Part shown: one piece after another, positions 645-41,340 of the stretch
Position numbering within the stretch: position 1 is the first letter of the stretch
How the letters are laid out: the number at the start of each line of letters is the position of its first letter
Origin: a virus
Virus record (IMG/VR): IMGVR_UViG_3300030106_001115
Location: 2,327 to 44,382 of that record
DNA: 42,056 nucleotides
Strand: one strand, 5' to 3'
Position numbers and translations under genes: made by a program
Notes under the pieces: generated by a model
Seen by the model: the letters and a program-made list of their open reading frames with translations, nothing else
Database searches by the model: none
Told to the model about the DNA's origin: nothing

Positions 645-871
645 CGTTTAGGATGACGGCATGGAACAGTGACGGGACCGACGTTGTGGAGATCGACGGT
701 CCCGTTTCTCCTGACAGGGTTATGGAAGCGGAAACGGAGAGCCGTGAGATATGGTGTCCGCATTGTTTTAAAAAGATGACGGTTGGCCATTTAAATTGGC
801 ATTCTTTAACGTGCCGCAATTGCAAGGAAGAAGTTGAAAAGCCCGATTGGCTGATGCCGTTGGGGTTATGA
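641..871 (+). CDS. Zinc-ribbon protein (76 aa)
   Basis: The start at 641 overlaps the upstream TGA (ATGA), and the end overlaps the methyltransferase start at 868. Two CxxC knuckles are visible, CPHC (about residues 39-42) and CRNC (about 58-61), separated by some 15 residues that include two His. This is the usual layout of a structural zinc ribbon. Such small proteins in phage early regions often bind nucleic acid or host proteins, but no specific role can be assigned. Position directly ahead of a DNA methyltransferase could suggest a partner function (inference only). Confidence 0.7.
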   Translation: MTFRMTAWNSDGTDVVEIDGPVSPDRVMEAETESREIWCPHCFKKMTVGHLNWHSLTCRNCKEEVEKPDWLMPLGL

Positions 872-1420
872 AGCTTAAAACCTTGGATCTGTTTTCTGGA
901 ATCGGTGGCTTTGCGCGAGGGCTCGAAGCCACTGATTTTTTTGAGACGAGTTGCTTTATAGAACAAGAGCCTTACTGTCAGGCCGTGTTAAGGTATCATT
1001 GGCCCGACGTTCCCGTGCTAGGAGACATAAAAAATGTCCGAAGATCCGACCTCCCCGACCCAGACCCCGATGTTATTTGCGGAGGATTCCCTTGCCAGCC
1101 ATTCAGTCACGCGGGGCGACAGCAGGCTCAAGACGACCCCCGTCACCTCTGGCCAGAGATGTTTAGGCTTATCAGGGAATGCCGGCCCACTTGGGTTGTT
1201 GGAGAAAACCAAGAATGGAAAAGGGTTATCAGGCCAACTTGGGGGACATGGTGAAGCTGGACCAGAAGAGTGGTGGGCAGTTGAGCCCTCTGTGGGTCGC
1301 TTGGTTAATGGGCTACCCAACCGAGTACCTCAACTCCGTGCCTTGGGAAACTCCATCGTCCCGCAAATCGCAGAAGAAATCGGAAACGCAATAAAGGTAG
1401 CAGAACAATGGAAGCCATAA
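868..1420 (+). pseudogene. Decayed C5 cytosine-DNA methyltransferase, internally deleted and frameshifted
   Basis: Frame 1 from ATG 868 (overlapping the upstream stop) encodes motif I DLFSGIGG, motif IV GGFPCQPFS with the catalytic Cys, and a motif VI-like GEN, then stops at 1254 after unrelated sequence. The C-terminal end lies in other frames. Frame 2 (about 1268-1420) gives RALGNSIVPQIAEEIG, the motif X helix. Frame 0 (about 1206-1331) gives GGQLSPLWVAWLMGYP, a tail also known in phage C5 methyltransferases. Motif VIII and the target-recognition domain are absent: 553 bases replace the roughly 900-1200 usual for the family. A catalytic region without target recognition, broken across frames, should be inactive. 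A sequencing or assembly error could explain the frames but not easily the missing middle. The downstream hydrolase start (1408) lies inside its last codons. Confidence 0.75.
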
Positions 1421-1827: not shown

Positions 1828-2698
1828 TTGGGTGCAGAACATACTGCCGAAACCTCTTGAGAATCCGACGCTTCGGGTAGTGAGCTTGGGCGCTGGCGTT
1901 CAGTCTACCGTTATGGCGATGATGGCTGAGAACGAAGCGTTTGGTCCCAGACCTGATTGCGCGATATTCGCGGACACGGGATGGGAACCGAAAGAAGTCT
2001 ACGGACATCTGGATTGGCTGGAGAAGCAGATATCGTTCCCCGTTCACCGTGTAACATCTGGAAACATAAAGCACGATCTGGAGAACAACCTGAATACGAC
2101 AGGTCATAACTTCTCAGCGATACCGTTCTTCATGGTTAATAAAGACGGTACGTTTGGCATGGCTCGGCGGCAGTGTACCAGCGAGTACAAGCTCAAGCCC
2201 ATACGTAAGAAGGTACGTGAACTGATTGGCCTGAAGCCAAGGCAGCGGACACCCAAGGGCGTGATGGTGGAAATGTGGATGGGCATCAGTCGCGATGAGG
2301 TGCAGCGCATGAAGGAGAGTTCTGATTCATGGGTCACGAACCGTTGGCCGTTGCTCGAGAAGGAGATGCGGCGATACGACTGCCTTGATTGGTTTCGGGA
2401 GCGTCACCCGCAACGGACGTTGGCCAAGTCGGCATGTATCGGGTGTCCGTTTCATGATGACCATGAGTGGAGCCACATAAAGAACAATTATCCAGAAGAG
2501 TTTGAGGAAGCTTGCCAGATCGATGAGAAGTTACGTGATCCAGAGATGGACGGCGGCAAGTTTCACGGGCAGCGATACCTACACGCGCAAAGGGTTCCGC
2601 TGCGCGAGGTACGGTTCAATACGGCGAGTGAAACTGGGCAGCAAGATCTGTTCAACGACTTGATGCAGAACGAGTGTGATGGAATGTGCGGGATATGA
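1820..2698 (+). CDS. PAPS-reductase-family PP-loop protein
   Basis: The 292-residue product has the PP-loop signature SLGAGVQST (residues 22-30) followed by FADTGWEP, as in the adenosine-nucleotide alpha-hydrolase fold shared by PAPS reductases, FAD synthetases and DndC-like enzymes. Conserved cysteines occur in CTSEYK (C119) and CIGCPFHDDHEW (C206, C209), possibly a metal or Fe-S site. ATG 1820 is preferred over the upstream GTG at 1790 because it follows a ggtggga ribosome-binding site and gives the usual 8-base overlap. Such genes are frequent in marine phages and labelled PAPS reductase, but the true substrate is unproven. No other sulfate-assimilation or phosphorothioation (dnd) gene is present, so a role in nucleotide or DNA modification is only one possibility. 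Confidence 0.85.
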   Translation: MTDWVQNILPKPLENPTLRVVSLGAGVQSTVMAMMAENEAFGPRPDCAIFADTGWEPKEVYGHLDWLEKQISFPVHRVTSGNIKHDLENNLNTTGHNFSAIPFFMVNKDGTFGMARRQCTSEYKLKPIRKKVRELIGLKPRQRTPKGVMVEMWMGISRDEVQRMKESSDSWVTNRWPLLEKEMRRYDCLDWFRERHPQRTLAKSACIGCPFHDDHEWSHIKNNYPEEFEEACQIDEKLRDPEMDGGKFHGQRYLHAQRVPLREVRFNTASETGQQDLFNDLMQNECDGMCGI

Positions 2699-2913
2699 CT
2701 AGAGATTTAAATAGAAGCCGCTCATTAAGACAAGCATTAGAGAGAAGTACTATATTGTCTTCTGAATGGGAGGAAGTTTTTTGGAGTTTAATGGAGAAGG
2801 ACTCCTTTAATTCTTGTCGCTGGTGTCACGTATGGGAGTATCCGGGGATAGATAATGGCATTGAGCATGCCGGCCCAGAGAAAATTAGACAGATAGTAGA
2901 GAGAAGAACATGA
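2695..2913 (+). CDS. Hypothetical protein with a single CxxC (72 aa)
   Basis: ATG 2695 overlaps the upstream TGA (ATGA); a GTG at 2686 in the same frame is a less likely start. The product is highly charged, with one CRWCHVW motif in the middle and a C-terminal HAGPEKIRQIVERR helix. A single CxxC plus nearby His could bind a metal ion or form a dimeric site, but no family is recognised. The sequence between about 2700 and 2930 looks more AT-rich than its neighbours by eye, which may mean separate acquisition. Confidence 0.65.
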   Translation: MTRDLNRSRSLRQALERSTILSSEWEEVFWSLMEKDSFNSCRWCHVWEYPGIDNGIEHAGPEKIRQIVERRT

Positions 2914-3128
2914 CTGAAGTAATATTGTTGATATCGGCATTGTTCGTAGCGGACAATCATGAGTTTCTGAAAGAGGCTAGAAAGCAGATTGACCAAGGAG
3001 CTAGATGGCATTACGTGGGTCACCAGAAGATTGATCCAAATGCCAAGGCTATACCAATCCAATGCGTAGATCACTTAGGCAAGCCATGCGGCGAAAAGTT
3101 TATTCTATGGAAGCTGAAAAAAAACTAA
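2910..3128 (+). CDS. Small hypothetical protein (72 aa)
   Basis: The start overlaps the previous stop (ATGA at 2910-2913). The N-terminus MTEVILLISALFVADNHEF is hydrophobic for about 10 residues but too short for a confident membrane segment. The remainder contains basic helices and two cysteines (CVDHLGKPC). No family is recognised. It is placed at the end of the early + strand cassette and overlaps the following microprotein by 22 bases. Confidence 0.6.
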   Translation: MTEVILLISALFVADNHEFLKEARKQIDQGARWHYVGHQKIDPNAKAIPIQCVDHLGKPCGEKFILWKLKKN

Positions 3129-3235
3129 AGCCAAAACCGGACCTTGAAAAATGTGATTGGTGTGGCGAGGAAACCCGCCCCCAAATCGAGGACAGTAAGC
3201 TCATCTGTCCCCGCTGCCGTCGCCCGTTGAATTAA
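3107..3235 (+). CDS. Zinc-ribbon microprotein (42 aa)
   Basis: The product has a lysine/proline-rich N-terminus (MEAEKKLKPKPDLEK) followed by CDWC, 14 residues and CPRC, a textbook two-knuckle zinc ribbon. It overlaps the upstream gene by 22 bases in another frame and has only a weak ribosome-binding region, so translation probably depends on coupling. Its TAA is formed by the palindrome TTAA at 3232-3235, which also supplies the stop of the convergent gene on the other strand. The four-cysteine pattern makes chance unlikely. The role is probably nucleic-acid or protein binding. Confidence 0.7.
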   Translation: MEAEKKLKPKPDLEKCDWCGEETRPQIEDSKLICPRCRRPLN

Positions 3236-3498
3236 TGCTGTATCTCTTCCTCCTCGTCAAAGGGTGTCAGGGCGCGATGAAATCCCGCGTCCGGGTCGCC
3301 GTCTTCTATACCTAGCGACTCCGAAAGCAACCGCGACATGAAGTAGTTCATGCGGGATATACCCAGTGCTTGGGCGCTGTACTCCATCGCGATTCGGTAC
3401 AAGATCCACATCTTCATAGTCGGTGGTAGACCGTCCAAACTTTTGACGGCTGCCTTTGACGATTTCTGATAGATCGTTTCCAGGTCATCGGGCGTCAT
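3232..3498 (-). CDS. Hypothetical protein of the inverted SNF2 island (88 aa)
   Basis: This is the last gene of a three-gene - strand unit, starting with an ATGA overlap on its upstream neighbour. It appears helical (YQKSSKAAVKSLDGLPPTMK, then MWILYRIAMEYSAQALG) and ends with an acidic tail (FDEEEEIQH). The acidic end could mimic nucleic acid or engage basic partners, but no family is recognised. Its stop codon shares the TTAA with the convergent zinc-ribbon gene, leaving no room for a terminator between the opposing operons. Confidence 0.7.
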   Translation of the reverse strand: MTPDDLETIYQKSSKAAVKSLDGLPPTMKMWILYRIAMEYSAQALGISRMNYFMSRLLSESLGIEDGDPDAGFHRALTPFDEEEEIQH

Positions 3499-6979: not shown

Positions 6980-8509
6980 ATGACGGAAGCAGAGAGATAT
7001 TTTGACCTTTTTCAAGGTTTTAGGGGCGCCCACGGCCAGACAGAGGTTCTGAACCATCAACGTCATGGTAAGCAAAAGGCGAAGAGCTTCATTGTCCGTG
7101 AACCGTTGACTATTGAACTTGTGCAGTCGCATCTGGACGGCAAGCAAGGGATTGGCAGTATACCTATTGATGAGGACAACAGTTGCAGCTTCGGTGCATT
7201 GGACATCGATGACTATAACCTTGACCTTATCGCGCTGTGTAAGAAGTCAGCCAAGCTGAAGTTACCCTTGACGTTGTGCCGTTCAAAATCGGGTGGCGCT
7301 CATTTATTTATATTTTTATCAGAGAAGGTGCCAGCGGTAGAACTCCGCGACAAGTTGGCCGAGTTTGCATCGGCCTTGGGCTTTGGCACGTGCGAGATAT
7401 TTCCCAAACAAGAGGAGGTCATCGTAGAGCGCGGTGACGTAGGGAACTTTATAAATTTACCATACTTTCAAGCTGAGTACGCGACACGGTTTGCTTATGA
7501 CAGAAGCGGCAAGGAACTGACGCTGGTTGAGTTTCTTGATCTGGCAGAGAAGAGCAAGATTACACTCAAGCAGTTGAGGGACTTTGAACTGACATCTAAG
7601 TCGGATGTTCTACCTAACGGTCCACCGTGTCTACAGCAGTTGACAGAACACGGGATTCCAGAGGGTGGCCGTAACAATACGATGATTAACATCGGCGTGT
7701 TCTACAAGCTATCGTCGCCAGGGAATTGGAAAGAGCTTCTGGAGAAGCATAACCAGAACTATTGCAATCCGTCGCTGCCAGCCAAAGAGATCGTGACGAT
7801 ACAGGAACAGCTGGAGAAGAAAGAATACTTCTACACATGCAAACAGGAACCGATACAGAGCCACTGCAACAAGGCACTGTGCAGATCCAGACAGTTTGGT
7901 GTGGGCGGTAGTCAATCATTCCCAACAATCGGTGGATTGACCGTCGTTCTGTCGGAGCCCCCAGTTTGGTTTGTGGACGTTGACGGTGCGCGGCTAGAAC
8001 TATCGACCAAGCAGTTACAGATGCAGATGGACTTTCAACGGGCTTGCATGGAGCAGATGTACCAGATGCCAGCGCGGATGAAGGATGCTGATTGGCGCGA
8101 CATGATCGACAATCTACTGACCACGGCAACGCACATACAGGTGCCAGAGGAGCTAACGACCAAGGGCCAGTTCAACGAGTTCTTGGAGACGTTCTGCACC
8201 TCTCGCATACGTGCGACTTCGGAAGAGGAGTTACTGACGGGCAAGCCATGGACAGCGGATGGCTACACATATTTCAAGCTAGGTGCGCTACAGGAGTTCT
8301 TGAAGCGCAAGGGTTTCACCAACTACTCACGTGGACAGATCACGGAGCGGTTAAAGGAACTGAACAATGGTGCGGAGTCGGATAAGCAGTATCGGCTGAA
8401 GGACAACAAGGGCAAGTGGAGAACGGTCAGGGTCTGGTTTGTGCCAGAGATGGAAGAACTAGACGTTGACTTGAAGAAGCCGAGCTTCTCTGAAGAGGTG
8501 CCGTTTTGA
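6980..8509 (+). CDS. Archaeo-eukaryotic-type (AEP/PrimPol-like) DNA primase
   Basis: This is a 509-residue protein. The N-terminal third carries the AEP signatures: FGALDIDDY with catalytic acidic residues D75 and D77, CRSKSGGAHLFIF with the nucleotide-binding H108, and CEIFPKQ as the third motif region. A cysteine cluster near residues 282-297 (TCKQEPIQSHCNKALC) may bind zinc or Fe-S as in primase accessory domains. The C-terminal part (YFKLGALQEFLKRKG) resembles a winged helix. No Walker A is present, so there is no fused helicase. It ends SFSEEVPF, another SSB-like acidic tip. The ATG at 6980 follows a terminator hairpin with no free ribosome-binding site. It should synthesise primers for the Pol A replisome. 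Confidence 0.85.
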   Translation: MTEAERYFDLFQGFRGAHGQTEVLNHQRHGKQKAKSFIVREPLTIELVQSHLDGKQGIGSIPIDEDNSCSFGALDIDDYNLDLIALCKKSAKLKLPLTLCRSKSGGAHLFIFLSEKVPAVELRDKLAEFASALGFGTCEIFPKQEEVIVERGDVGNFINLPYFQAEYATRFAYDRSGKELTLVEFLDLAEKSKITLKQLRDFELTSKSDVLPNGPPCLQQLTEHGIPEGGRNNTMINIGVFYKLSSPGNWKELLEKHNQNYCNPSLPAKEIVTIQEQLEKKEYFYTCKQEPIQSHCNKALCRSRQFGVGGSQSFPTIGGLTVVLSEPPVWFVDVDGARLELSTKQLQMQMDFQRACMEQMYQMPARMKDADWRDMIDNLLTTATHIQVPEELTTKGQFNEFLETFCTSRIRATSEEELLTGKPWTADGYTYFKLGALQEFLKRKGFTNYSRGQITERLKELNNGAESDKQYRLKDNKGKWRTVRVWFVPEMEELDVDLKKPSFSEEVPF

Positions 8510-8961
8510 AGATTCAGCCTATGCCCATAACGTTGCGAGAGGCCAACCACTTTGTGGAACAGTTCCACAGGCACAGCAAGAGAACGAGTAGGGACGGTGG
8601 CAAGTTTGCGATAGGCGCCACTACGGGGGACCGCATGGTCGGCATTGCAATTGTCGGTAGACCAGTGGCTCGATTACTGGACGATGGATACACCGCAGAG
8701 GTTACACGTTGCTGCGTCTTGGACGATGCGCCGAAAGGAGCGTGTTCTTTTCTGTATGGCCGTTGCTGGAGAATCTGGCAGCAGATGGGTGGCAAGCGCA
8801 TGGTCACGTACACGTTACAGAAAGAAAGCGGATCTAGCCTGAAGGGCGCTGGGTGGAAGATCGTGGGGGAGACAGAGAAGGGCGGTTGGGACCGCAAAGG
8901 TCGGGAGCGGGATTGGCAACCGATTTACGGACAGCTCAAATTTAGGTGGGAAGCGCAATGA
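8506..8961 (+). CDS. GNAT-like protein related to the XF1762 family
   Basis: The likely start is TTG 8506, overlapping the primase TGA (TTGA), with AGAGG about nine bases upstream; ATG 8521 has no ribosome-binding site and would cut into the conserved opening ITLREANHFVEQFHRHSK. That phrase is characteristic of the XF1762-type proteins found in many phages. The later segments AEVTRCCVLDDAPKGACSFL and GGKRMVTYTLQKESGSSL fit an acetyl-CoA-binding N-acetyltransferase fold. The substrate is unknown; modification of host or phage protein or of DNA bases is possible. It sits between primase and helicase in a stop-start coupled chain. Confidence 0.75.
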   Translation: MKIQPMPITLREANHFVEQFHRHSKRTSRDGGKFAIGATTGDRMVGIAIVGRPVARLLDDGYTAEVTRCCVLDDAPKGACSFLYGRCWRIWQQMGGKRMVTYTLQKESGSSLKGAGWKIVGETEKGGWDRKGRERDWQPIYGQLKFRWEAQ

Positions 8962-10487
8962 AAGTTCAGAAGACATACCTAGGTCCACCTGGCACGGGCA
9001 AGACGCAAAACAACTCCAACCTCATACAGGAGTATATGCGGCAAGGCATTGAACCAGAGCGCATCGCGTGTGTGTCGTTTACAAGGAAAGCTGCGAAGGA
9101 AAGTCAGGAGCGTGTATGTCGGGACACTGGAATTACAGAGGACCGTTTGCCGCACTTCAGGACGCTGCACTCCATTGCCTTCCGTGAGGGTGGGTACAAA
9201 ACTTCAGACGTTATCGGCGGTGCGGACTTTGCAAAGATTGGGGCGGCCATTGGATTGTCCTTCGGAAAGAACTACTCACAGAACATAGAGTCTGACTTTG
9301 ACACGTTGGGCGTGAGCGAAGGCGACTTCTACATGAGCTTGTACCACCTAGCGCGTAGCAAGGAGATCCCGTGGGAAGAGATGTTCAGAAGGGCCGAGAA
9401 CTACAATCTGCATTACTCTGAGATGAAGCGCCTTGTGGACACATACGAAGACTACAAGCTTGAGTATAACAAGATCGACTTCACGGACATGATTGAGGAG
9501 TTCATTGAACGGGGTTATTCGTTGGACGTTGACGCTTTGGTTGTCGATGAGGCACAGGATCTGTCTACGCTACAGTGGAAGATGGTGGATGTATTGCGGG
9601 AAACGCCTGACATACAGATCTTCAGCGGCGATGACGATCAGGCGATCATGGGCTTTCAAGGTGCGGACGTTGAGGCGTTCCTTAGTGCGACAGAAGACCG
9701 CGAGGTTCTGCATAAGTCTTACAGGTTGCCAGAGAGTGTATGGCATGTGGCACAGAGTGTGGTGTCACGTATTCGTGACAGGGCGCCCAAAGATTGGAGT
9801 CCTCGAGATGAGGACGGGACCGTGCAGCAGCATCAGAGCTTGTGGGACGTTCCATTGGACTCAGGGGAGTGGTGCATCCTAGCGCGGACCAATCGCATTG
9901 CGTCACAGTACGCCGATGCGTTGAGAGACGAAGGCTGGGTCTACAGCCGTAACGGACGGCCTAGCATACCAACAAACATATATGACGCGATCATGTCGTG
10001 GGAAGATTTGACCAAGGGCAAGAACATAACCCCGCAAGAGATCAAGAACGTTTACACCCACATGAGAGCGGACGTTGGTTATAGGAAGGGCTTTGGTCCA
10101 AGGTCCAAGGCGTTGCTATCTGTCGATGATGAGACGATGATCAACATGGACTACGCAAGGGACCATCTAGGGTTGCTGCAAGTAGGGGATATCCGTTGGC
10201 ATCAGGTCTTGGACAAGATCACACGGGACATGGAGCACTATCTACTGAACGCATTACGGCGCGGTGACAACGTCAAGAATCCTCGTATCAAGGTCAGCAC
10301 GATACACTCCATGAAGGGCGGTGAGGCTGACAACGTACTGGTGATACCTGACTTGTCCTACGCCGCAGATCGTGAATACCAGAAGAACCCCTCTACGGAG
10401 CATCGTGTCTTCTATGTCGCCGTGACAAGGGCGCGTCAGTCTTTGCACATAATGGAACCCATAACGGATAAGTATTACACAATATGA
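8958..10487 (+). CDS. UvrD/Rep-like superfamily 1 DNA helicase
   Basis: The 509-residue product shows ordered SF1A motifs: Walker A GPPGTGKT (residues 9-16), motif Ia FTRKAAKE, Walker B VVDEAQDLS (DEAQ 197-200), motif III SGDDDQAIMGFQGAD, motif IV SYRLP, motif V STIHSMKGGEADNV, and motif VI VFYVAVTRAR with the arginine finger. It is shorter than UvrD (about 720 residues), with reduced 1B/2B insertions, as in phage forms. The start at 8958 overlaps the upstream stop (ATGA). SF1A enzymes move 3'-5' on ssDNA. With no DnaB-type helicase visible, this or the SNF2 protein may be the replicative motor. Confidence 0.93.
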   Translation: MKVQKTYLGPPGTGKTQNNSNLIQEYMRQGIEPERIACVSFTRKAAKESQERVCRDTGITEDRLPHFRTLHSIAFREGGYKTSDVIGGADFAKIGAAIGLSFGKNYSQNIESDFDTLGVSEGDFYMSLYHLARSKEIPWEEMFRRAENYNLHYSEMKRLVDTYEDYKLEYNKIDFTDMIEEFIERGYSLDVDALVVDEAQDLSTLQWKMVDVLRETPDIQIFSGDDDQAIMGFQGADVEAFLSATEDREVLHKSYRLPESVWHVAQSVVSRIRDRAPKDWSPRDEDGTVQQHQSLWDVPLDSGEWCILARTNRIASQYADALRDEGWVYSRNGRPSIPTNIYDAIMSWEDLTKGKNITPQEIKNVYTHMRADVGYRKGFGPRSKALLSVDDETMINMDYARDHLGLLQVGDIRWHQVLDKITRDMEHYLLNALRRGDNVKNPRIKVSTIHSMKGGEADNVLVIPDLSYAADREYQKNPSTEHRVFYVAVTRARQSLHIMEPITDKYYTI

Positions 10488-10750
10488 AACCTAATGAGAT
10501 CTTACAGAAATGTCTGGACCTGGTTACAGGTGAACGTGCCTCTCAGCATGGAGACTATACGAGTCTGCATGAACGGTTCGCTGAACTGGTGACCGTCTAC
10601 CTTGGTCATAACGTGACCCCGGAGCAAGCTGCGTTTATAATGGTTTTGCTAAAGGTTGCCAGACATGAGAACGGCGCCTTTAACCCAGACGATGGGGTTG
10701 ATGCAACGGCATACACAGCTATATGGGCGGCACTCTGCGATGGAAGATGA
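10484..10750 (+). CDS. DUF6378-like phage protein
   Basis: The start overlaps the helicase stop (ATGA at 10484-10487). The 88-residue product contains GERASQHGDYTSLHERFAEL and FIMVLLKVARHENG followed by DDGVDATAYTAIWA, the wording of DUF6378 proteins common in phages beside nucleotide or replication genes. The helical layout and conserved acidic/His residues recall small MazG-type nucleotide pyrophosphohydrolase folds, but that is inference. It overlaps the DNA polymerase start by 11 bases. Confidence 0.75.
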   Translation: MKPNEILQKCLDLVTGERASQHGDYTSLHERFAELVTVYLGHNVTPEQAAFIMVLLKVARHENGAFNPDDGVDATAYTAIWAALCDGR

Positions 10751-12665
10751 CCTATTTGACGAGACGATCTGGACGCCACCAGACTCACTACCAGACCTGT
10801 CGGGCGAGAAACTCATCTGCATAGACGTAGAAACCAAGGACCCTAACCTGATTTCCAAGGGACCGGGTTGGTCACGCGACGATGGATATCTTATCGGTAT
10901 TGCTGTTGCTACAGAGAACTGGCAAGCGTACCTACCTATCGCACATGACAGCTTCGGCAACATGTCAAAGACAAACGTGGTCAAATGGCTCAAAGCGCAA
11001 CTGAATCATGGCATGGATGTCGTGTTCCACAATGCACAGTATGATCTAGGGTGGCTCAAGACAGAGGGCCTTGAGGTTAAGGGCAACATACTGGACACGA
11101 TGATTGCGGCCCCACTGTTAGACGAAAACAGGTTTAGCTACAGCCTAGATGCCTTGGGTAAGACGTATCTTGGTAAGCGAAAGCAAGAGGATGATCTACG
11201 TCGAACGGCAGCGCAGCATGGCGTAGACGCTAAGAAGGACATGTGGAAGCTACCGCCGGCCAGAGTCGCTCTGTACGCTGAGACGGATGCGAGGTTGACG
11301 TTTGACCTATGGCACGTGCTCAAGCGGAAACTAAAGGACGAGGACTGCTTAGACATCCTCAAAATGGAATTGGATTTGCTGCCCTTGATCTTTGACATGA
11401 AGTGTAGAGGTGTTCGTGTGGACTTAGACAAAGCGCATGATACAAAGAAGTTGTTGCAGTCCAAGGAAGACGCGCTCTGTAAGGTCATCAAAAACGAGAC
11501 GGGGGTAGACATTGAACCGTGGAACGCAAAGAGTCTTGCGCGGATCTTTGATCACTATAACTTGTCCTATGACAGGACAGAGAAGACGGAGGAGCCAAGC
11601 TTCACGAAGAAGTTCCTGTCGGAACATGAACACCCAGTAGCGAAGAATATCCTTGAGATACGAGAATACAATAAAGCCAATACAACGTTTGTTGATACGA
11701 TTCTTAGTCATCAGCATAATGGCCGTATTCATTGTCAGTTTAACCAGCTGCGCTCGGATGGAGGTGGGACCGTGTCGGGAAGATTCTCATCAAGCCATCC
11801 TAATTTGCAGCAAGTTCCCTCTCGACACCCACAAATTAAGAAAATGGTTAGAGGACTCTTTCTCCCGGAAGAAGGCACCAAGTGGGGGAGCTTCGACTAC
11901 AGTTCCCAAGAGCCACGATGGCTGATGCATTACGCATCGCTGACGCCCCCCATGTCTGGAGACGAGAAGGTCATTGAGATCGTGGATATGTATCATGCGA
12001 AAGACGTAGACTTTCACAAGATCATGGCAGAGATAGCTGGCGTTGAACGTAATCAAGCGAAGACCATTAACTTAGGTGTAATGTACGGCATGGGCGTAGG
12101 CAAGCTATCGTCCGTGCTTGGTAACATATCGTTTGAAGAGGCCAAAGCAATTCGGGATGAGTATAACGAGAAGGTTCCGTTCATCCGTGACCTTGCGTCC
12201 ATGGTTACCAAGACAGCGGAGAAGCGTTCAGAACTCCGCACGATGTTGGGCCGTAAGTGTCGATTTCCAATGCGGGAGCTAAAGGGCTACTCAAAGACGA
12301 TGAAGAAGCCGATTCACGCAGAGGCGCTAGAAGCGCAGTGGGAAGACATTCTGAACACGCCAGAGAAAGAACGCGATAGCAAGTGGCGAAGCAAGAACCC
12401 AAACTTGTATCAGGTTGCGTTCACGTACAAGGCACTGAACAGGCTCATACAGGCGTCAAGCGCGGATCAGACCAAGCAAGCTATGCTGGACTGTGCAGCC
12501 AAGGGCCATGTTCCAATGCTCACGGTTCATGATGAACTGTGCTTTTCGGTACAAGGCGATGAGGTACCTGAGATCAGAAATTTGATGGAGCAGTGTGTGC
12601 CGAAGCTGAACATTCCAGCCAAGGTGGACGTTGGCCTTGGCGAGAACTGGGGTGACGCTAAGTAG
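10740..12665 (+). CDS. polA: Family A DNA polymerase with 3'-5' exonuclease
   Basis: ATG 10740 (MEDDLFDETIW) is chosen because earlier codons in this frame lie inside the preceding gene and do not resemble polymerase. It gives 641 residues, like other phage Pol A proteins lacking a 5' nuclease. Exonuclease residues: D29/E31 (CIDVETK), D102 (FHNAQYD), D183 (YAETD). Polymerase motif A is FDYSSQEPR with D386 and the steric-gate E391. The O helix RNQAKTINLGVMYG has R437, K441, L445 and Y449. Motif C is VHDEL (H597-D598). L445 aligns with E. coli Phe762, so this is a Leu762-type polymerase, a class linked in the literature to slower, more accurate and often temperate phages. It is the last gene of the + strand replication module. 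Confidence 0.95.
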   Translation: MEDDLFDETIWTPPDSLPDLSGEKLICIDVETKDPNLISKGPGWSRDDGYLIGIAVATENWQAYLPIAHDSFGNMSKTNVVKWLKAQLNHGMDVVFHNAQYDLGWLKTEGLEVKGNILDTMIAAPLLDENRFSYSLDALGKTYLGKRKQEDDLRRTAAQHGVDAKKDMWKLPPARVALYAETDARLTFDLWHVLKRKLKDEDCLDILKMELDLLPLIFDMKCRGVRVDLDKAHDTKKLLQSKEDALCKVIKNETGVDIEPWNAKSLARIFDHYNLSYDRTEKTEEPSFTKKFLSEHEHPVAKNILEIREYNKANTTFVDTILSHQHNGRIHCQFNQLRSDGGGTVSGRFSSSHPNLQQVPSRHPQIKKMVRGLFLPEEGTKWGSFDYSSQEPRWLMHYASLTPPMSGDEKVIEIVDMYHAKDVDFHKIMAEIAGVERNQAKTINLGVMYGMGVGKLSSVLGNISFEEAKAIRDEYNEKVPFIRDLASMVTKTAEKRSELRTMLGRKCRFPMRELKGYSKTMKKPIHAEALEAQWEDILNTPEKERDSKWRSKNPNLYQVAFTYKALNRLIQASSADQTKQAMLDCAAKGHVPMLTVHDELCFSVQGDEVPEIRNLMEQCVPKLNIPAKVDVGLGENWGDAK

Positions 12666-32122: not shown

Positions 32123-32626
32123 TTACGCACTCACCGTAACAGGACCGGCAGACGAAACGCCGCCCCCTCCTGTTGTATTACCAGATGTCGCTGTCTCACT
32201 ACCCGCAGAGAATGTGTATGTGTCATCGCCTACTTTCGTAATTGAGTACCCAGATGCGGATTGTAAGTTTGATGAAGTGAAACCGTCAAATGCTTCAACA
32301 GACCGGAAACGGACAGTATCTCCAGTAAGGCGCCCGTGATTCAGTTCAGAAACGGTGATGGTGGAGGTGCCACTGTTTCCAGACTTAAAGGCGTTAAACT
32401 TCAACAAAACCGTAACAGCAGGCTCAGATCGATCTGAACGGCTAATTCGTAATGCTTGTGGATCTGCTCTGATAGGACGAGGCTCAAGTTGAGGATGTTT
32501 AGACTCATACTCGTCCTTACCCACCAGAGAGTTATTCCACTCTCGGATCATGTCCGTCAACTTATACGCTCTGCCAGAACGATCCGATATTCCTAGAGCA
32601 TACTTTCCAGAAGCATATCTGCCCAT
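32123..32626 (-). CDS. Conserved connector-region protein with FCCH-like beta insert (167 aa)
   Basis: The N-terminal 60 residues (MGRYASGKYALGISDRSG then REWNNSLVGKDEYESKHPQL) are a strongly conserved marine-phage signature of unknown function. Residues about 82-158 are a beta domain with NHGRLTGDTVRF and GDDTYTFSAGS ending in a GGGG segment, closely resembling the insert in the tail protein at 23266-25551. Similar inserts are annotated in databases as ubiquitin-activating-enzyme E1 FCCH-like domains. The core plus add-on layout suggests a structural scaffold decorated by a shuffled domain. Confidence 0.8.
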   Translation of the reverse strand: MGRYASGKYALGISDRSGRAYKLTDMIREWNNSLVGKDEYESKHPQLEPRPIRADPQALRISRSDRSEPAVTVLLKFNAFKSGNSGTSTITVSELNHGRLTGDTVRFRSVEAFDGFTSSNLQSASGYSITKVGDDTYTFSAGSETATSGNTTGGGGVSSAGPVTVSA

Positions 32627-33528
32627 TACGTCACACTTAGCGAGCTGTAACTCGGCACAAGCCTGAGAGATACTCTTTCGCCATCCTCTGCCGCCGCCCT
32701 ATAGAACTCTTCCTCATATAAATCTTTCAGAGCTCCAATCCTTTCGGGCGCCTTCTTAACAGACAAATAATACGATAGCCCTGCAACTAAACAGGGAAGA
32801 AACCGAAACGGAATGTCTGCGTTGTTTATAGACGCATCAATGTCCTCTATGCGCCGTACTCTGTAATATATCAATTGATCTGTAGAATTTTCGGGAGAGG
32901 GCCAAACCGTAATCGTCGGCGTAACCTGACGGTCTATAAAAAACTGCGTTGGCCGGCCTTGAGTGGTCTTATCTGGTATTGTCAGATAATCCTGTCTACC
33001 AATTCGGCTGGTGCTAATATCTGTTCCAGAACGCCGCACCACAGCTTCTAAGACATCAACCGTAGCCTGGACATCTGAGAGATCCGATACAGATGTCACC
33101 GTAGCAGTAGCAGAACTAGATGCCCCCGTAACCGTTTCTGTAGCAGTAAACGTTCCTACAGGTATCGTTATGGTCATTGTCGTACCAGAAGGTTTTGTGA
33201 TAACGGAAGTTGAGGCCCCGCTGGTTCCTCCGCTTATTGACTCTCCCACAGAAAATCCAGTGGACGATGACACGGTCATCGTGATCGTGCCGATTGGATA
33301 TGTTGCTATGGAAGAAGAGGAGGAGAGTTGAGCAAAAGTTAATGTCTTCTGCTCAACTGTCCACAGGTTTAAACCTCTGTTCGCCCACTCTGCAAACAGT
33401 AAGTTTAAAGAACGTCTTGCAGTGGCGGCGTCATAGCCTGTGCGGAGTTCAAGGCCGCATCTCTCATAGGCTTCCTCGATGACATCAGCCATGTTCAAGT
33501 TAAAATCAACGGAACCTGAAGTAGCCAT
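32626..33528 (-). CDS. P22 gp4-like tail accessory/adaptor protein with inserted domain (300 aa)
   Basis: The N-terminal helices NMADVIEEAYERCGLELR and AARRSLNLLFAEWANRG-type sequence, and the C-terminal FLPCLVAGLSYYLSVKKAPE, are the hallmarks of the P22 tail accessory factor gp4 family, which extends the portal ring. The core is interrupted between about residues 79 and 150 by a Ser/Thr-rich beta insert (TITMTVSSSTGFSVGESI, TVTGASSSATATVTS). This insert is not part of the usual fold and looks like a separately acquired domain. Start ATG 33528. Confidence 0.8.
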   Translation of the reverse strand: MATSGSVDFNLNMADVIEEAYERCGLELRTGYDAATARRSLNLLFAEWANRGLNLWTVEQKTLTFAQLSSSSSIATYPIGTITMTVSSSTGFSVGESISGGTSGASTSVITKPSGTTMTITIPVGTFTATETVTGASSSATATVTSVSDLSDVQATVDVLEAVVRRSGTDISTSRIGRQDYLTIPDKTTQGRPTQFFIDRQVTPTITVWPSPENSTDQLIYYRVRRIEDIDASINNADIPFRFLPCLVAGLSYYLSVKKAPERIGALKDLYEEEFYRAAAEDGERVSLRLVPSYSSLSVT

Positions 33529-38964: not shown

Positions 38965-41340
38965 TCAACCCATTTTGTTTATGCGGCTCTGATTAATTTG
39001 CGCTCGTAACAGCGCGATATCCTCCTGAGAGTCGATTTTTTCTCTATCGATCTCTTGGTTTTCTGCTGTTTTCTGTTGATCAAAGTCTAACCGAGCAGCA
39101 AACTCGTTCGCCTTTCGTTGAAGATCCATGGCCTTGATATCAAGCTCTTTGTCACGAAGCTCAACTAGAGGATCAACATCGGCGCCTGGTGGCGGTCCAA
39201 GCATAGGCATGATTTCTTGCGTATATTCCGCAACTAACTGTGCAACCTCGGCCTCTACGTCCATCGGGGGTGGCTGCATTCCTTGCGCCATAGCTTGCTC
39301 TGCCATCATCATCGTCTTCGCTTGAACAACATTCCGAGCCTTGAGCGCAATATGCTCACAGATATGCGCCTGAAGAAGACCAAGAACAGGCGGGGTGCCG
39401 GCTGGAACAGGTGTCTTCATGAACGTAATGTGAGACAAAATATGCGCGTCATGGTCCTGTGTCGGAAACGCCTGTAAGTTCTCTTGAATCAACGCTCGAG
39501 CGTTCTCAATCGCTGGATCAGTAGGCTGTGGAGGTTTGGGTGTAGGCAAGATTGCCTCTATGTTCTGAACCCCCAGCGCCTGATACATCCTTCTGTACGC
39601 CTCAAACAGGTTATGCATCTGCGGGTTTGACTGCGCCAGCTGAAGCTGTGTCTGTGCTATCGCGATTCGCTGCGATAGAGAAAAGATATTCGGATCAGAT
39701 ACAGGAATAACATCGACACGGTCATCAAAATCCATCTGCTTGATGAAGGACTCCGCGCCGTAGACGTTGTAAGGGTACATAGGCGGCAAAGATTCCTTGA
39801 ATATCTTCGCCAGCATCCTGAACTCTTGTTTCTGGGCGTAGTGAAGCCGCTTATGAATAGCGGACATCACCCGTGAGCCCCTCTCAAGAAGTGCCACCGT
39901 TGTCCCTACAGCCGCCTGCTGGTTGCCGTCACCAACCTGAAGATCCGCAATCGCGGCGAATCTCTGGCCTGCCTCTACCACAAAACCTAGCAGAGAGTAC
40001 AACGTTTGGCTTGGTTCCTTATAGGGAAGCGGCATCAGGCTGTCGCGCAAAGCACCACCAGGAGCGTCAATGTCGCGGAACTCGCCGGGAGCAAGAGGTT
40101 CGTCAGAGTCACGGATGCGGATACCTCGGGCTTTGAATCCAGCGGGTAGGTTTGCCAAGGTGCCAGCATCAATCAATTGCCGCATAATAGAGGTCGCGGA
40201 ACGGCCAAGACCTCCAATCATATGAAGCAGACCAAGGCCGTAGAAGCCTAGCCCCGGAAGAAACTTGTAATGCGTGAAGTATTGATTCTTTTTGTAATAC
40301 TCATCGCCTTCATTCCAGTTGCGACGGATCGATAAAACCGTCGTACTCCCCTCATCCACCGTAACAATATACGGCAACTTGATGCCTGTTTCTTCTCCAT
40401 CCAAGGGACTGACATGCTCAAAGCCTTTCAGATCAAGGTCGATATGAAACTCTATGAGAGTGCAGTCTTCTCCATCAACGGTCTTTTCTACGCCGACAAG
40501 TTCCCGCTCTTTCTCTCGTAGACTATCGTCAGACTCATACGGCGTCAGTTCAACATCGCGATAGAACCCAGCCGCCTGATTTTTACGGACATTGTTGATG
40601 TCCATGCGTACAACGTGAGCAATACGGGATGCAGACTCAAGATCCGTAGCATTGTAAGGTACAACAAGATCATCAGCCGGCACGAACCGCGCTACGGCCC
40701 TGTCCAGCATGTCATCAAAGTAAATCTTCTTGAACGCGCTCCCAGCCAACGGCAGATAGAAGAGCATACGATCCGTTTCAGGATCATACTCTTGCATAAC
40801 ATTCAGGATTTCGTAGTTCATGAAATCCTTAACACGCTGTGCTTGATCTTCTGTTTCTGGGGTAACGGCGCCTACAATCTCCGTGCGAACGGGGCCAGAC
40901 GAGGGCAAAAGCTCCTTGTATGCTTGTGACTGAAACTGTGTCACGGCTTCAGCGATGACGGGGTGCGTCACACCACTGGACCCTCGAAAAGGTTCTTCAC
41001 GGTCTTCATACTTGATACCAAGAAGATCAAGGCCGTCAGAGTACGCATCTTCCCACTCCTGTCGGCCAGACTTGTCCTCCTCGTATAGATATAGGAGTTC
41101 TTGAGCGATATCATTAAGGTCGCGTTCGTCCAAAAGCTCCGCAAGGTTTGCGTCTTGCTCTGTGAACATCTGTTCTCTGACAGCGTCCTCAAAGTTGATG
41201 ATGACAGAGCCATCCTCTTCTTCAATGATCTCTGTCGGATCTTCAAGCTGTTCAACCTCAACGGCTTCCTCTTCCTCAAGAAGATTCTCACCTTGAGCAG
41301 GCATCGCGCCGTCTATTAAGGAGATAGGGGTCTCAGCCAT
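38965..41340 (-). CDS. Portal protein (P22-like)
   Basis: The 791-residue protein shows the P22-type portal pattern of many marine podo-like phages: an acidic N-terminus (LLEEEEAVEVEQLEDPTEII), WEDAYSDGLDLLGIKYEDRE, FRGSSGVTHPVIAEAVTQFQ, a central wing (FFYLPLAGSAFKKIYFDD-type), GLGRSATSIMRQLIDAGTLA, and the helical C-terminal barrel (LLRAQINQSRINKMG). Portals form the dodecameric DNA gate of the head. ATG 41340 follows TAGGAAAAG, in which the TAG is the stop of the small zinc-ribbon gene. Confidence 0.9.
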   Translation of the reverse strand: MAETPISLIDGAMPAQGENLLEEEEAVEVEQLEDPTEIIEEEDGSVIINFEDAVREQMFTEQDANLAELLDERDLNDIAQELLYLYEEDKSGRQEWEDAYSDGLDLLGIKYEDREEPFRGSSGVTHPVIAEAVTQFQSQAYKELLPSSGPVRTEIVGAVTPETEDQAQRVKDFMNYEILNVMQEYDPETDRMLFYLPLAGSAFKKIYFDDMLDRAVARFVPADDLVVPYNATDLESASRIAHVVRMDINNVRKNQAAGFYRDVELTPYESDDSLREKERELVGVEKTVDGEDCTLIEFHIDLDLKGFEHVSPLDGEETGIKLPYIVTVDEGSTTVLSIRRNWNEGDEYYKKNQYFTHYKFLPGLGFYGLGLLHMIGGLGRSATSIMRQLIDAGTLANLPAGFKARGIRIRDSDEPLAPGEFRDIDAPGGALRDSLMPLPYKEPSQTLYSLLGFVVEAGQRFAAIADLQVGDGNQQAAVGTTVALLERGSRVMSAIHKRLHYAQKQEFRMLAKIFKESLPPMYPYNVYGAESFIKQMDFDDRVDVIPVSDPNIFSLSQRIAIAQTQLQLAQSNPQMHNLFEAYRRMYQALGVQNIEAILPTPKPPQPTDPAIENARALIQENLQAFPTQDHDAHILSHITFMKTPVPAGTPPVLGLLQAHICEHIALKARNVVQAKTMMMAEQAMAQGMQPPPMDVEAEVAQLVAEYTQEIMPMLGPPPGADVDPLVELRDKELDIKAMDLQRKANEFAARLDFDQQKTAENQEIDREKIDSQEDIALLRAQINQSRINKMG

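Follow-up and report, generated by a model that had tools for sequence, protein, structure and literature searches.

Overlapping reading frames behind a broken phage C5-cytosine methyltransferase gene

Why should the same bases at the end of one methyltransferase gene spell two different conserved C-termini? This question is raised by a stretch of viral DNA of 42,056 nucleotides (positions 2,327 to 44,382 of the IMG/VR record IMGVR_UViG_3300030106_001115; the whole stretch is hereafter called the window), in which a C5-cytosine methyltransferase (MTase) gene, at positions 868-1420, has lost part of its interior to a deletion. An initial annotation, made from the sequence alone, had taken the two ends for alternative tails that a frameshift could interchange. 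We conclude with high confidence that this region is the deletion remnant of an overlapping two-subunit C5-MTase gene with the layout of M.EcoHK31I. In the model that we propose, the first chain, alpha, would be catalytic, carrying motifs I-VIII, a long linker predicted to be disordered and the helix of motif X. The second chain, beta, would be translated from an internal Shine-Dalgarno (SD) sequence and ATG in the +1 frame of alpha, and would contribute an array of modules that begin with WPTP, the putative recognition domains, together with motif IX. Alpha and beta would assemble into one MTase, probably as a heterodimer. We observed the deletion relative to related genes, two open frames with constraint on both, internal start signals, and the gain and loss of modules. 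The layout is known from M.EcoHK31I; what appears to be new is the double-coded, shuffled module array of the family.

What the window copy retains

All parts of the window copy lie on the plus strand. Frame 1, from the ATG at 868 to the stop at 1254, holds the N-terminal part of alpha with motifs I-VI, including motif I (DLFSGIGGF), motif IV (GGFPCQPFS at 1081-1107, with the catalytic cysteine; its PCQ is invariant across 35 relatives) and a GEN at 1201-1209. The product matches PF00145 in Pfam (1.7e-30, profile positions 2-110 of 324) and phrog_363 (4e-46), and up to position 1209 the gene is 94-96% identical in nucleotides to intact relatives. At its end, up to 1254, this part has three codons or more of out-of-frame readthrough to the stop. 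The initial annotation had read motifs I and IV and the GEN in this frame, followed by loss of the target-recognition domain (TRD), and this is what the sequence contains.

Bases from about 1268 to 1333 can indeed be read in two frames, as had been noticed. Frame 2 gives the tail EEWWAVEPSVGRLVNGLPNR at 1265-1324, followed by motif X, ALGNSIVPQ, at 1340-1366. It belongs to the C-terminal part of alpha (1210-1420, stop at 1418-1420), which includes the EPSVGRLVNGLPNR segment at 1283-1324, corresponds to the alpha tail of relatives and matches the phage MTase families phrog_363 and phrog_32758. Frame 3, called frame 0 in the initial annotation, gives SGGQLSPLWVAWLMGYP at 1269-1319, ends in ETPSSRKS and meets no stop before the one at 1392-1394. 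It belongs to the C-terminal part of beta (1210-1394), which is 95-98% identical in amino acids to the intact beta of relatives and matches the phage MTase families phrog_31772 (1.2e-6) and phrog_1008. This part comprises the final portion of the last WPTP-type module (RMEKGYQANLGDMVKLDQKS), the putative motif IX (LSPLWVAWLMGYPTEY at 1281-1328, conserved in beta) and the overprinted end ETPSSRKSQKKSETQ. Neither tail reading is due to chance, because both frames are conserved and free of stops in intact relatives.

Frame 2 is open further upstream too, from the ATG at 1034, with a different conserved sequence on which the initial annotation was silent. This upstream part (1034-1209) is the start of the second protein, beta. 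It overlaps motifs III-VI of alpha, matches positions 40-88 of phrog_1008, and is open and conserved in relatives. Set against the full C5-MTase motif set, the window copy has motifs I and IV and the GEN in frame 1, motif X in frame 2 and motif IX in frame 3, and comparison with intact relatives indicates that motif VIII and the TRD are missing.

Base-by-base comparison with the IMG/VR relatives L010 and L011 places the loss of 602 bp at the junction 1209/1210, where GGAGAAAAC is joined to CAAGAATGG, between flanks that are 94-98% identical to relatives; the earlier suspicion of a deleted gene was correct. The size difference is 632 bp relative to L012 and 278 bp relative to L013, the missing length depending on the module array of the relative, and in every case it is 2 mod 3. 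A deletion of about 600 bp with this remainder would have taken out everything between the motif VI region and a point inside the last module, and would have put the two remaining ends out of phase, with the N-terminal part of alpha in frame 1, a chimera in frame 2 and the motif IX end of beta in frame 3. As a result of this shift in phase, the start of beta is now fused in frame to the end of alpha, and the open reading frame (ORF) at 1034-1420 is a beta-start/alpha-end chimera made by the deletion. Neither chain is complete in the window copy, and both subunits should be inactive, because the deletion is out of phase and cuts both.

The deletion is present in one metagenomic contig, and a scan of IMG/VR k-mers for the 23-mer that spans the junction found no second contig. 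An assembly error is possible on this account: the phage would carry an intact two-frame gene, and the assembler would have collapsed its module array. That module arrays are repetitive and variable among close relatives, and that these close relatives are all intact, also speaks for such an error. Against it stands the junction itself, which connects the motif VI region with mid-module sequence rather than two copies of one repeat with each other, and which is spanned by just a 6-of-8 match (GAGAAAAC versus GATAAAAG). We regard misassembly as possible though rather unlikely, and infer that the deletion is real in the phage itself. Within its family, the window copy is either dead or misassembled, and it is probably a dead gene.

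Two genes adjoin the remnant. A cell wall hydrolase is encoded at 1408-1827 (PF07486, 2.4e-23), its start overlapping the last 13 bases of the MTase remnant, and a PAPS-reductase-like protein lies at 1820-2698 (PF01507, 2.5e-4, just below the cut-off).

Two chains and two starts in intact relatives

The IMG/VR contigs L010-L014, which have 95-99% protein identity to the N-terminal part, carry the same gene with more DNA in its middle. In intact relatives, a single uninterrupted frame takes alpha from motif I through motif X, and the chain ends with EPSVGRLVNGLPNR...ALGNSIVPQ. Beta lies in the +1 frame of alpha, is open from an ATG (window 1034) to a stop matching window 1392-1394, and ends with motif IX, LSPLWVAWLMGYP. 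This arrangement, an alpha with motifs IV and X around a beta with motif IX, was found at 50 of the 57 distinct viral loci that bear motif IX. A scan of bacterial genomes returned 63 loci in many groups, including Bacillota, Proteobacteria, Bacteroidota, Acidobacteria, Verrucomicrobia and others. The majority of the 59 that we examined have the two tails together, and most loci show two long frames beside a short third one. At L079:3001-3946 the alpha frame stops right after motif VIII and the beta frame, with its WPTP modules, is open to the end of the contig; this alpha stop is due either to decay or to a sequencing error.

Beta also has start signals of its own. A GGAG (window 1021-1024) precedes the beta ATG (1034-1036) by 9 nucleotides, both within alpha codons and the GGAG inside those for GDI. 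The glycine codon at this SD site is GGA in 33 of 35 genes, although GGA accounts for 40% of all their glycine codons. In 39 of 41 genes the site is followed by an ATG in the beta frame.

These signals bear on the possibility that one polypeptide is made by programmed frameshifting, with a +1 shift after motif VIII into the modules and motif IX, which would make the tails true alternatives, as the initial annotation thought. The product would unite motifs I-VIII, the recognition region and motif IX in one chain, and these motifs do share a frame at two bacterial loci, L201 (a Clostridia metagenome-assembled genome) and L221 (Paenibacillus macquariensis), both at about 2050-3350, with motif X in another frame. 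These are the only two such cases among the bacterial loci, and both look like ordinary indels in the module region, which would make them additional decayed copies. The shifted product would lack motif X; the SD and ATG of beta are conserved and lie far upstream of motif VIII; the beta frame upstream of motif VIII is open and partly constrained; and M.EcoHK31I is a two-polypeptide enzyme. Programmed frameshifting is, in our judgement, very unlikely, and we rejected the idea of tails swapped by a frameshift, given their joint presence at most loci and the internal ATG of beta. In intact relatives the tails end two proteins that are encoded at once, alpha with motif X and beta with the putative motif IX. 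What holds of the earlier view is that both tails are conserved and match phage MTase families, and database MTases were found to use each of the two frames; the tails are not alternatives.

Constraint on both frames and the content of each chain

Nearly all of 80 relatives of the N-terminal part have no stop in the +1 frame between motif IV and a point just before the alpha stop, and the +2 frame has 7-37 stops in complete genes. We observed no +1 stop over 157-381 codons in 52 genes, against averages of 3-12 in synonymous shuffles of alpha; the segment compared ends at the beta stop by definition, and this stop lies at most 86 nucleotides from the alpha stop, one gene excepted. The +2 stops in the 52 genes are mostly as these shuffles predict. 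Shuffling the codons of beta in the module regions of 51 genes gave 259 expected stops in the alpha frame, against none observed, a result somewhat favoured by the choice of viral genes for a long closed alpha; the third frame had 453 stops against 435 expected. As controls we used canonical one-frame C5-MTases, E. coli Dcm among them, which have 7-27 stops in the +1 frame, matching their shuffles. An open +1 frame by chance was rejected.

Substitutions support the same conclusion. In the alpha-only N-terminal part, 60% of them fall on alpha codon position 3, and in the motif IX/X tail they are spread over both frames (44/16/40%; 22 independent pairs in each case). Within the modules, 48 independent pairs of the same type were compared: 63% of substitutions fall on beta position 3, and the amino-acid difference is 12% in the beta frame versus 33% in the alpha frame. 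Judged by these codon positions, alpha dominates over motifs IV-VIII, beta takes over from motif VIII to motif IX, and both chains make use of the tail. Dual coding of alpha and beta is strongly supported, and the tail is natural overprinting, as the initial annotation had proposed. That alpha is the sole gene and the +1 ORF an incidental shadow of a conserved protein is extremely improbable: alpha is the recognised MTase and beta has no Pfam or PDB match, but the shuffle tests in both directions, the canonical controls, the codon periodicity in the beta frame and the smaller amino-acid difference of same-type modules in that frame all speak against it.

With alpha and beta as two encoded chains, we considered what each one carries. 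The catalytic domain with motifs I-VIII is present in the alpha of intact relatives, and LGNxxxPQ lies close to its C-terminus. The matches of alpha to PF00145 and TIGR00675 break off at about position 165 of 324/329 (L010 alpha, PF00145 2.2e-41, profile 2-166; the TIGR00675 match ends at 162 of 329). In structure models, which were built from alignments of contig sequences only, residues 1-170 of alpha fold like M.HhaI, with M.HhaI as the best PDB match (Foldseek E 6.9e-13). Most of residues 171-244, the part opposite the modules, has very low confidence, with a predicted local distance difference test (pLDDT) score of about 28, and a helix that includes motif X appears again at 246-274. The motif IX pattern was not found in the alpha of bacterial loci, L221 excepted. 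Beta carries an array of modules starting with WPTP and followed by LNPxWVxWLMGYP, conserved in intact relatives as L[NS]PxWVxWLMG[YF]P.

Besides the single contig behind the deletion, several points weigh against our conclusion. Profile alignment with hhalign puts motif IX of beta on the canonical motif IX weakly (E 0.15). A PDB sequence search with beta and its profile returned no match, and the AlphaFold model of beta alone is poor (pLDDT 46), which says little for a half-domain yet lends no support.

M.EcoHK31I is a two-subunit C5-MTase with the specificity YGGCCR, and its small chain, too, is read in another frame inside the large one. Its motifs I-VIII and X are in the large subunit and motif IX is in the small one, and its predicted TRD has been placed in the large subunit (PMC3404938). 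The intact relatives resemble it in that the large chain has motifs I-VIII and X and no motif IX, with the small-chain gene nested in another frame. They differ from it in the placement of the TRD, since here the codon constraint between motifs VIII and IX is in the small-chain frame, over a multi-module array; the window copy differs further in being broken. M.AquI is likewise a C5-MTase that naturally comes in two chains; in contrast to it, the large chain here has motif X, the small chain has the putative motif IX, and the chains are encoded in overlapping, different frames.

Alpha has a direct profile match to phrog_363, and beta to phrog_1008 and phrog_31772; PHROGs keeps these as separate families, each called just "DNA methyltransferase", with no two-frame link stated. 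Two of the database records examined annotate both ORFs, those of Escherichia phage K1ind2 (a C-specific methylase and an Mte8-like protein) and Paenibacillus phage Leyra (two DNA-cytosine methyltransferases). In literature searches limited to open-licence papers, neither WPTP modules nor an alpha/beta overlap across phages came up. As such searches miss most of the subscription literature, this speaks only weakly for novelty.

Module arrays and target specificity

The arrays in beta, between motifs VIII and IX, consist of 1-7 WPTP modules, each about 30-50 amino acids long. The 183 modules from 51 genes form 57 clusters at 55% identity, computed without the shared WPTP anchor, which had chained unrelated modules, and one module type can be found at different places in different arrays. 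Close pairs of genes differ by whole blocks. L051 and L054, with ends 99.6% and 99.3% identical, differ by one 126-nucleotide module; L036 and L040 (ends 99.2% and 100% identical) differ by 96 nucleotides, and L016 and L022 (97.4% and 98.6%) by 240 nucleotides, all of these lengths being multiples of 3. One module type recurs in Escherichia phage K1ind2 and in Erwinia phage Gungnir39, with an amino-acid identity to these phages of 74% in the module and of 49-50% in the catalytic part. Since they fill the place of a TRD, between motifs VIII and IX, and appear and disappear as units, the modules are candidate TRDs. As whole modules come and go between genes that are otherwise about 99% identical, beta probably encodes the recognition region as a shuffled array of cassettes.

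In the multispecific phage C5-MTases of the SPbeta, phi3T and SPR group, recognition modules stand in a row between motifs VIII and IX and are reshuffled among phages. These enzymes are single chains encoded in one frame. The arrays described here are like them in having several tandem modules of variable number at the same position, and unlike them in that the modules belong to a second chain, read in a second frame, with a putative recognition role for each module.

We lean towards a broader reading, in which a widespread family of phage and bacterial C5-MTases has its recognition region in a second, overlapping frame, as 1-7 shuffled cassettes. On this reading, the TRD of M.EcoHK31I-type enzymes would also be reassigned from the large to the small subunit. 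Each cassette would need to make sense twice, giving beta a recognition module and alpha a linker without stops; with cassettes of this dual-frame kind, specificity would be exchanged by cassette moves in multiples of three bases.

Elsewhere in the window, a protein with an archaeo-eukaryotic primase domain of the TOTE type (PF22548), a UvrD-like helicase and a family A DNA polymerase stand in a row at 6980-12665, a probable phage replication module. The adaptor and portal proteins (32626-33528 and 38965-41340) match phage SU10 families (PF24175 and PF23899), suggesting an SU10-like head.

The MTase remnant reveals a long same-strand overlap, of about 160-380 codons, that is common to phages of many hosts and to bacteria of several phyla. 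Many records annotate just one of the two genes, and the beta frame usually goes unannotated. Because each frame prevails in its own segments of a single gene, the overlap is a good system for studying how double-coded sequence evolves. Should the recognition modules indeed belong to beta, a large group of phage MTases would have its target specificity in a frame that annotation often ignores. The arrays would then be readable as specificity codes, and the protection from restriction that methylation gives would be exchangeable cassette by cassette.
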